Of a DNA stretch of 64,000 nucleotides, positions 34,008 to 35,475 are shown piece after piece (within the stretch, counting starts at the first letter, position 1; each line of letters begins with the position of its first letter). The DNA is taken from NCBI RefSeq assembly GCF_003952525.1, contig NZ_CP034451.1:3100001-3164000 (forward strand), given 5' to 3'. This stretch comes from Mesorhizobium sp. M3A.F.Ca.ET.080.04.2.1. Its GTDB lineage: Bacteria; Pseudomonadota; Alphaproteobacteria; Rhizobiales; Rhizobiaceae. Under the pieces are notes generated by a model, which was not told the origin of the DNA, ran no database searches, and saw only the letters and a list, made by a program, of their open reading frames with translations. The translations under genes were made by a program, and so were the position numbers.

Positions 34008-34262
34008 ATGGCTGACCAGCTGGCGACCGAAATCATCGAGAAGATCAAGGCTCATGCCGAGACCGGGGGCGAGGAAATCACCACCAGCACCGACCTCAAC
34101 ACGCTGGGAATCCATTCGCTGGAGCTCACCGAGATCATCTTCGATCTCGAGGAGAAATACGGCATCGAGATCGAGATGAACACGGTCGATGCCTGGAGCA
34201 ACCTGAAGAACGTCGGCGACATGGTCGAGGCGGTTCGCGCGCTGATCGCGAAAAAAGCCTGA
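34008..34262 (+). CDS. NodF-like acyl carrier protein
   Basis: An 84-residue acidic four-helix carrier. The C-terminal half, IEIEMNTVDAWSNLKNVGDM then VEAVRALIAKKA, is close to NodF of Rhizobium leguminosarum as I know it, and MADQL at the start also matches. The phosphopantetheine Ser37 is in GIHSLELTEII: the near-invariant Asp before it (DSL) is His here, which is unusual and could affect modification by the holo-ACP synthase. ATG 34008 follows GGGGAAGGAA. The ketosynthase gene begins 4 bp after its stop, so the two are coupled, as nodF and nodE are. Confidence 0.85.
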   Translation: MADQLATEIIEKIKAHAETGGEEITTSTDLNTLGIHSLELTEIIFDLEEKYGIEIEMNTVDAWSNLKNVGDMVEAVRALIAKKA

Positions 34263-34266
34263 CTGC

Positions 34267-35475
34267 ATGCTGAAACGCGTCGTCATCACCGGCATTGGCG
34301 GGATATGCGGGCTCGGCAACGATGTGCCCGCCATCTGGAACGAAATGCGCGCCGGCCGCTCGGCGATCGGCACGATCGAGAATCCGTTCCTGCATGATTT
34401 GAAGGTGAAGGTCGGCTGCGAAGTCAAGACGTTGCCGGACCACGGCATCGACCGCAAGCAACTGGTGTCGATGGACCGCTTCAGCCTGCTGGCGGTGATC
34501 GCCGCCCGGGAAGCCATGCGGCAGTCCGGCTTGGCGGCGCATGCCGACAACACCTACCGGATGGGTGCCGTCGTCGGCGTCGGCGTCGCCGGCTTCGAGA
34601 CCATCGAGGAGAATTATCGCGCGATCCTGGTGGATGGGCGCAGCCGCGCCGCCATCTTCACCGTGCCGAAGGTGATGCCGGGTGCGGCAGCCGGCCAGGT
34701 CAGCATGAATCTCGGCCTGCGCGGCCCGGTGTTCGGCGTCACCTCGGCCTGCTCGTCGGCCAATCACGCCATCGCCAGCGCCGTCGACCAGATCAGGCTC
34801 GGCCGCGCCGACGTGATGGTCGCCGGCGGCACCGAGGCGCCGCTGGTGTGGGGCGTGCTCAAGGGCTGGGAAGCGCTCAGAGTGCTTTCGCCCGATACGT
34901 GCCGGCCCTTCTCGGCCGACCGCCAGGGCCTGTCGCTCGGCGAAGGCGCCGGCATGGCGGTGCTGGAAAGCTACGATCACGCCACGGCGCGCGGTGCCAC
35001 CATCCTGGCCGAGATCGCCGGCACCGGCCTGTCGGCCGACGCCTCCGACATCGTCGCGCCGACCGTCGAGGGACCGGAGGCGGCGATGCGGTTTTGCCTG
35101 GCGGATGCCGGGCTCAATCCGGAAGATATCGACTATCTCAACGCGCACGGCACCGGCACCAAGGCCAATGACCAGATCGAGACGGCGGCGATCAAGCGCG
35201 TCTTCGGCGAGCACACGCGCGGACTCTCGGTCTCTTCGACAAAGTCCATGCACGCGCACTGCCTCGGCGCGTCGGGCGGGCTGGAGATGATCGCCTGCAT
35301 CATGGCCATCCGCGACGGGGTCGTGCCGCCGACGGCGAATTTCCGCGAGCCCGACCCCGACTGCGATCTCGACGTGACGCCGAACACGGCGCGCGAGCGC
35401 AAGGTGCGTGCTGCGCTCAGCAACAGCTTCGCCTTCGGCGGCACCAATGCGGTGCTGGCCTTCAAGGCGGTCTGA
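34267..35475 (+). CDS. NodE-like beta-ketoacyl-ACP synthase
   Basis: A 402-residue condensing enzyme of the FabF/NodE type. The Cys-His-His triad is intact: Cys162 (TSACSSANHAIASAVDQI), His294 (LNAHGTGTKANDQ) and His331 (STKSMHAHCLGA) with Lys326. Blocks such as DHGIDRKQLVSMDRFS, the Cys162 segment and REPDPDCDLDVTPN resemble rhizobial NodE more than housekeeping FabF. With the coupled NodF-like carrier it should elongate a special fatty acid. No other nod gene, nod box or NodD gene is in view, so a symbiotic role is unproven; a chromosomal paralogue making a membrane or surface lipid is equally possible. Confidence 0.88.
   Translation: MLKRVVITGIGGICGLGNDVPAIWNEMRAGRSAIGTIENPFLHDLKVKVGCEVKTLPDHGIDRKQLVSMDRFSLLAVIAAREAMRQSGLAAHADNTYRMGAVVGVGVAGFETIEENYRAILVDGRSRAAIFTVPKVMPGAAAGQVSMNLGLRGPVFGVTSACSSANHAIASAVDQIRLGRADVMVAGGTEAPLVWGVLKGWEALRVLSPDTCRPFSADRQGLSLGEGAGMAVLESYDHATARGATILAEIAGTGLSADASDIVAPTVEGPEAAMRFCLADAGLNPEDIDYLNAHGTGTKANDQIETAAIKRVFGEHTRGLSVSSTKSMHAHCLGASGGLEMIACIMAIRDGVVPPTANFREPDPDCDLDVTPNTARERKVRAALSNSFAFGGTNAVLAFKAV

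Follow-up and report, generated by a model that had tools for sequence, protein, structure and literature searches.

We found that an acyl carrier protein (ACP) gene and a ketosynthase (KS) gene of Mesorhizobium form a real, conserved module that is untied to nodulation genes; the evidence on its origin is good and that on its product is weak. Sequence comparison points to a core chromosomal gene pair that has been vertically kept in Mesorhizobium and related genera. This pair probably serves core lipid metabolism as a dedicated ACP-KS module, and it would be a present-day representative of the lineage that was the source of nodF and nodE. It was studied in one stretch of 64,000 nucleotides (64 kb), here called the window, and positions are those of the window unless another locus is named.

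The ACP gene (34008..34262, plus strand) encodes 84 amino acids and matched PF00550 with 38.7 bits against a cut-off of 20.8. After a gap of 4 bases it is followed by a KS gene of the FabF/NodE type (34267..35475, plus strand), which encodes 402 amino acids and matched PF00109 and PF02801; a sequence-only reading of this DNA had placed a NodF/NodE-like ACP and ketosynthase here, and both open reading frames were indeed found at those places. The stretch AGGGGAAGGA (33993..34002, plus strand), read off the sequence, is the likely ribosome-binding site of the ACP gene. The phosphopantetheine serine of the ACP, Ser37 (codon 34116-34118, plus strand), lies in the motif IHSL and is directly preceded by His36 (34113-34115, plus strand); both residues were invariant in an alignment of 17 ACPs, each taken from a different genus. 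Alignment of the KS placed its catalytic residues at Cys162 (codon 34750-34752), His294, Lys326 and His331, which were identical in 86/86 aligned rows, and its gate residue at Phe390 (35434-35436), all on the plus strand. When both window genes were compared with nine relatives by the Nei-Gojobori method, dN/dS was 0.06-0.38 in 18/18 comparisons, which shows purifying selection on the pair.

Both proteins had been described as closer to NodF and NodE than to their housekeeping counterparts, and the comparisons bear this out. The best solved-structure match of the ACP was NodF (1fh1, E 4.8e-23), with the second-best at 1.2e-5, and the ACP shares 62% identity with both NodF copies of its own genome. 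Similarly, the KS shares 73% and 71% identity with the two NodE proteins encoded there, compared with 43% for the FabF of that genome (the KS adjoining the housekeeping ACP) and 36% and 34% for two other KS. With its ketoacyl-synthase domains and the Cys-His-His-Lys set, the KS is a member of the FabF-type (KAS II) superfamily, and the family library places it as FabF-type. It passes the broader subfamily model NF005589 (444.4 against a cut-off of 387) and stays under the cut-off of the FabF equivalog TIGR03150 (456.3 bits against 493.75, E 7.6e-137); a NodE model was absent among the 25 of 32 family-library matches listed. The ACP matched 10 ACP models and reached the cut-off of none, including those for AcpP (35.3 bits at best against 66; 27.9 against 70.45 for the equivalog TIGR00517).

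These results bear on whether the pair is simply a redundant general elongation system, a spare AcpP and FabF whose product would be an ordinary membrane fatty acid. The two systems share the fold family, the catalytic residues and the gate Phe of FabF, and the E-value of the FabF model is very low, though its score lies under the cut-off. However, the KS is only 43% identical to the FabF of its own genome, which already holds an acpP-fabF pair, and the distance of the ACP from AcpP together with the invariant IHSL across 17 genera argues for a dedicated partner ACP. We therefore consider a spare elongation system unlikely and favour a dedicated module.

We then compared the pair with nodFE of S. 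meliloti 1021, R. leguminosarum, N. galegae and Mesorhizobium nod clusters. Gene order, coupling and the catalytic residues of the KS are the same, the KS is about 70-80% identical to the plasmid rows listed, and the second half of the ACP is similar, reading EMNTxDAWSNLKNVGD in the window protein. In contrast, the window ACP, with 84 amino acids and IHSL, lacks the N-terminal insert of 8-10 residues found in NodF. NodF rows carried DSL in 32/32 cases and had 91-94 amino acids in 31/32, the remaining row being a partial open reading frame. The chromosomal pair also differs in having no nod box and in occurring in genomes without a NodA match.

The pair had been placed between a urease cluster and a GST gene, which agrees with what we found: upstream lies the divergent urease accessory gene ureD (32955..33869, minus strand; Pfam UreD, PF01774, E 1.6e-50), and downstream lies a GST-family gene (35563..36306, plus strand, by its longest open reading frame; the true start may be the ATG near 35602). 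The 138 bases between ureD and the ACP gene (33870..34007) hold a block conserved in Mesorhizobium-type loci and no nod box. In an alignment of 21 Mesorhizobium-type rows, taken from the 80 loci described next and the window, strong conservation upstream of the pair was seen at 33865-33900, around the ureD start codon (about GACATTGTTTCGGTTTCTATAGAGGGAAGCC). This block is possibly a divergent promoter; a scan for a sigma-70 promoter found none.

Named genomes were scanned with the KS and the best 80 of 170 loci were kept, 79 of them titled Mesorhizobium and one 'Bacterium M00.F'. Among these 80, ACP and KS were adjacent in every locus, with ureD 139-455 bases before the ACP in 79 loci and GST 24-262 bases after the KS match, likewise in 79; the one absence of GST falls at a contig end, and the one absence of ureD does not. 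Outside Mesorhizobium, 23 chromosomal-type loci (L142-L164) were compared, and ureD adjoined the ACP in 13 and GST came after the KS in 15, at a distance of about 1.1 kb in the case of L151. One or both neighbours were present in 19/23, which, like the 79/80 counts, might suggest that the pair works with urease or with the GST-family disulfide oxidoreductase and not in a lipid pathway of its own. We regard this as very improbable: ureD is divergent, neither neighbour was present in the other 4/23 loci, and in four genera (L168, L170, L171 and L173) a distantly related ACP-KS pair lies in a different neighbourhood that these four share, with flanking proteins recognised by eye that we take to be LeuD-, LeuB- and Asd-like. 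In one further locus (L165, genome G146), an IHSL-type ACP at about 9004-9249 lies some 6 kb from ureD, and the fetched stretch held no KS match.

An ACP orthologue was found in all 37 same-genus genomes compared, our own included, with 82 to 100% identity. Fourteen of these 37 had no NodA match (two of the 14 being only 86 and 90% complete), so that the pair, followed here by its ACP, is also kept where no NodA match exists; NodA (PF02474) was found in 68/99 genomes of the genus. Across the GTDB family, relatives of the ACP at E<=1e-7, a count that includes the NodF of nod regions, occurred in 98/297 genomes and 39/109 genera. The other 70/109 genera sampled gave no relative at this threshold, so that they would either do without the function or have replaced it. 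A KS adjoined the ACP in 39/40 fetched family loci. Two protein searches, with 120 matches listed, gave among others the names Aminobacter, Pseudaminobacter, Aquamicrobium and Corticibacterium for the ACP and, for the KS of one distant relative, Nitratireductor, Chelativorans and Aquibium, the latter three by KS alone.

Nod boxes were searched with a score over 32 specified bases and with positive controls. A strict pattern allowing 3 mismatches was dropped and replaced by this scored scan because it gave zero matches even in the nod region. The best site of the whole window scored 19/32, which is the level of shuffled sequence (four of five shuffles below 19 and one at 19), and thus no nod box was found in the 64-kb window. 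By comparison, the four best sites in the nod region of the same genome scored 26-28/32, and ten control nod loci reached 24 to 32 at their main sites. The 23 chromosomal-type loci of other genera gave best scores of 17-20/32. Among the loci of NodE rows, 26/28 had a site of 24-32, and the best score was 17 in L194 and L204. A nodA, B, C or D match was present in 23/28, where a nodD match may be another LysR regulator, and none was found in L169, L194, L202, L207 and L212. These exceptional rows had been assigned as NodE by a NodF-type ACP, plasmid location or annotation, apart from L194, which was assigned on the KS alone and whose nodF matched only in pieces.

The genome that contains the window (6.17 Mb, one contig) carries a nod cluster about 630 kb from the pair. 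The description of the pair as lying outside an obvious nod cluster is right, with the correction that the genome does have such a cluster elsewhere. In it, nodF stands at 3764507 and again at 3780299, and nodA at 3766860; the two nodFE pairs (G000:C1:3764507-3781783; L021 and L022) are 15.8 kb apart and flank nodA, and the two nodF genes are preceded by identical nod-box-like sites. Seven other same-genus genomes likewise have paired NodF matches at a spacing of 15-16 kb. At G015:C1:6457165-6457349 the NodF matches came as two pieces in different frames, with NodE there open, and this nodF may be broken.

Since the genome has nodA and two nodFE pairs, and the window proteins are 62% identical to NodF (ACP) and 71-73% to NodE (KS), the pair could be read as a second, nod-independent acyl supply for Nod factor in symbiotic strains. 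This is an improbable reading, because the window lacks a nod box, all 14 NodA-negative genomes of the 37 compared carry the pair, Aquamicrobium and Pseudaminobacter appear as names among the close ACP matches, and the pair is conserved beside urease genes instead of nod genes. A role in core lipid metabolism remains the reading that we prefer.

To place the KS, 122 sequences were collected, 111 of them different, and three maximum-likelihood trees of 88, 87 and 86 rows were computed. For the first tree, 10 of the 20 Mesorhizobium rows were dropped along with 13 further ones, as near-copies or distant sequences, and the three own-genome KS, which have long branches, served as outgroup. The second tree omitted ten long-branch rows and gained nine more Mesorhizobium loci, while a tenth candidate (G023) was left out as it ends before the KS; here the single FabF was misplaced on a branch 5.3 long. 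The third tree omitted FabF and six Mesorhizobium rows, gained six plasmid rows, and was rooted on the nearest chromosomal relatives because the earlier outgroups were long-branched or misplaced.

In all three trees, 29 NodE from Mesorhizobium, Rhizobium, Sinorhizobium, Neorhizobium, Agrobacterium and other family members formed one clade (99/98, 100/99, 100/99). The window KS does not cluster with FabF, and it falls outside the NodE clade, within the Mesorhizobium chromosomal group. NodE, the Mesorhizobium chromosomal proteins and L192, a further Mesorhizobium pair described below, formed one group (100/97, 98/98, 99/98), and in the three trees this group sits inside a larger chromosomal clade of other genera. 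We then applied AU tests to groups that were named after the first tree was known, so that the p-values are not strictly a priori: a single clade of the 42 chromosomal rows without NodE was rejected (p-AU 8.4e-5), while holding the 11 Mesorhizobium chromosomal rows together was not (p-AU 0.31). An origin of NodE inside the genus Mesorhizobium and an origin beside it both fit the trees.

The first of these tests rejects a back-transfer from nodFE, and with it bears on the idea that the pair is a nodFE copy that moved from the symbiosis island to the chromosome and then spread. The high similarity to NodFE and the frequent mobility of symbiosis genes would suit such a move. However, NodE is nested in the chromosomal clade and not the reverse, the pair occurs where NodA does not, and the chromosomal ACP is without the insert common to NodF, all of which makes this move extremely unlikely. 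The suggestion that the pair is a chromosomal ancestor or paralogue is thus upheld by its occurrence in genomes without a NodA match and by the nesting of NodE, with the refinement that, on the trees, the pair would be a living member of the lineage that yielded nodF and nodE and not the ancestor itself.

Judging from further trees and loci, nod clusters apparently took nodF and nodE from the chromosomal lineage more than once. Pairs of a second type were found on plasmids of S. fredii GR64, S. americanum CCGM7, S. mexicanum, S. terangae, R. etli IE4771, Rhizobium sp. NXC14 and CC1099. Like the chromosomal pairs, they have an ACP without the insert (83 amino acids; IHSL in 3/7 and IQSL in 4/7), a Phe gate in 7/7, and a position nested in the chromosomal clade. 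Unlike them, they have nod-box-like sites of 26-30/32 upstream of the ACP, and 4/7 adjoin nodABC. Their chromosomal lineage of origin is other than that of NodE: their KS formed one clade (100/100) elsewhere in the chromosomal tree, and uniting them with NodE was rejected in the third tree (p-AU 2.1e-5), as it was in an earlier AU test with GR64 and L192 (p-AU 9.8e-5). L192 (Mesorhizobium genome G031) is a further pair in a nod cluster, with an 82-residue ACP, IHSL, a Phe gate and a nod-box-like site of 29/32 upstream. Its position shifts among the three trees, and it may share the first capture because its place within the Mesorhizobium group is unstable. The same cluster holds a second, diverged ACP (IYSLEL; L192:1678-1929) directly after a gene that looked sulfotransferase-like by eye, and no KS open reading frame was found after it.

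The serine motif and the gate residue separate the chromosomal proteins from NodFE. All 80 ACPs from the scan of named genomes, which kept the best 80 of 170 loci, read IHS before leucine, as did the ACPs of L117-L165, and distant relatives (L168-L175) vary at this motif with IQSL, INSL, IDSL, LSSL and VNSL. Six KS positions, each with 80% conservation, divide NodE from the chromosomal proteins, and one of them is the FabF gate, which is Phe in 51/51 chromosomal rows and Met in 25/29 NodE. The four Phe-gated NodE form one early NodE branch, Rhizobium sp. 007 being an example of a strain with such a protein, and a single Phe/Met change is needed on the tree; since Phe- and Met-gated proteins both occur among NodE, the gate residue does not define the NodE family.

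In FabF, Phe400 of the GFGG loop is described as a gate that may bar unsuitable acyl-ACPs, in the part of PMC7138838 available to us. For Rhizobium sp. IRBG74, the accessible text of PMC5080398 reports that a nodE deletion abolishes polyunsaturated Nod factors. L208, from the Agrobacterium pusense plasmid IRBL74_p, is Met-gated and is probably this NodE, given that BN877 locus tags stand both in its record and in the portion of PMC5080398 at hand. L204 (R. jaguaris) is also Met-gated and lies with nodA and an acyltransferase gene, as in the R. tropici CIAT 899 cluster, and for CIAT 899 the available part of PMC3557214 states that acyl chains of the polyunsaturated type had not been observed. 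L204 and the CIAT 899 chain record speak against a simple reading of the gate.

Bringing gate and trees together, we put forward as a real possibility, a little short of probable, that an ancient chromosomal lipid module of Mesorhizobium-like bacteria was captured by nod clusters at least twice, once as classical nodFE and once as the Sinorhizobium/R. etli plasmid pairs, and possibly a third time in G031. Conjugated-polyene Nod-factor tails would have come later, inside NodE, once the gate had changed from Phe to Met and chains still carrying an unreduced trans double bond could be extended.

As to function, the most likely role of the pair is to supply an envelope lipid with one special acyl chain, much as the sequence-only reading had also supposed. 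In the proposed pathway, AcpS would load phosphopantetheine onto Ser37 of the ACP, and the KS (Cys162-His294-His331) would condense malonyl units onto the chain carried by this ACP. Shared FabG, FabZ and FabI would complete every round, and an acyltransferase encoded elsewhere would transfer the finished chain to a lipid of the envelope, which might be an N-acylated amino sugar. As the KS retains the FabF gate Phe, it is expected to elongate ordinary saturated or cis-unsaturated chains rather than conjugated trans-polyenes like those of NodFE. The genome gave a single ACPS-family match, and the His before the ACP serine might impair AcpS recognition.

A conserved acyltransferase beside the pair was not found in the Mesorhizobium loci. 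Among distant relatives, three genomes from a single genus of the family (G206, G344 and G397) have a second LpxD-family gene immediately before the ACP, and a KS beside such an ACP was seen in G206, the one of the three that was fetched. An LpxD-family gene also precedes the ACP-KS pairs of Paracoccus and Pseudorhodobacter, and the single LpxD over cut-off in our own genome is located elsewhere. LpxD N-acylates a glucosamine, like NodA, and these neighbours may hint at the acyl target, as a lead only. The link transfers weakly to the window pair because the relatives are distant (KS 52.5% identical to the window KS in L175 and 48.8% in Paracoccus) and their ACPs read DSL in Paracoccus and Pseudorhodobacter and NSL in L175.

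Genes nodF and nodE are usually met on mobile symbiosis regions. The present results offer a concrete source for these host-specificity genes, with the resident chromosomal system as their comparison partner. As predicted marks of the switch from ordinary elongation to Nod-factor polyenes, we propose the gate change from Phe to Met, the ACP insert and, just ahead of the serine, the replacement of His by Asp.

A chromosomal nodFE homologue without a nod box is already known: according to the available part of PMC4070662, both the symbiosis island and the main chromosome of M. loti MAFF303099 carry nodFE homologues, without nod boxes. The chromosomal one, known to us by that description, is probably of the same locus type as the window pair; the difference is that the portion of the paper at hand gives neither distribution, tree nor motif analysis. 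Two copies each of nodE and nodF are described for M. huakuii 7653R in the accessible text of PMC4072884, and a NodE tree has been published, as seen in part of PMC3557214. We found no account of an origin of nodFE from a chromosomal pair in the literature searched, whose coverage mostly leaves out subscription journals.

Public annotation (jgi) names many chromosomal-type proteins 'nodulation protein E' or 'F', a misleading label, and outside nod clusters such names are no indication of symbiosis. Outside the Alphaproteobacteria, a related ACP-KS pair was seen on the Xanthomonas sacchari plasmid NZ_CP010410.1 (L232), beside aminotransferase and GNAT genes and with no LpxD-type neighbour. At the level of the order, ACP-KS pairs whose ACP reads IESLDLAM (L177, L178, L179 and L181) adjoin a gene that by eye is acyl-CoA-synthetase-like, and in 3/4 of them a MerR-like regulator, also recognised by eye, adjoins the pair as well.
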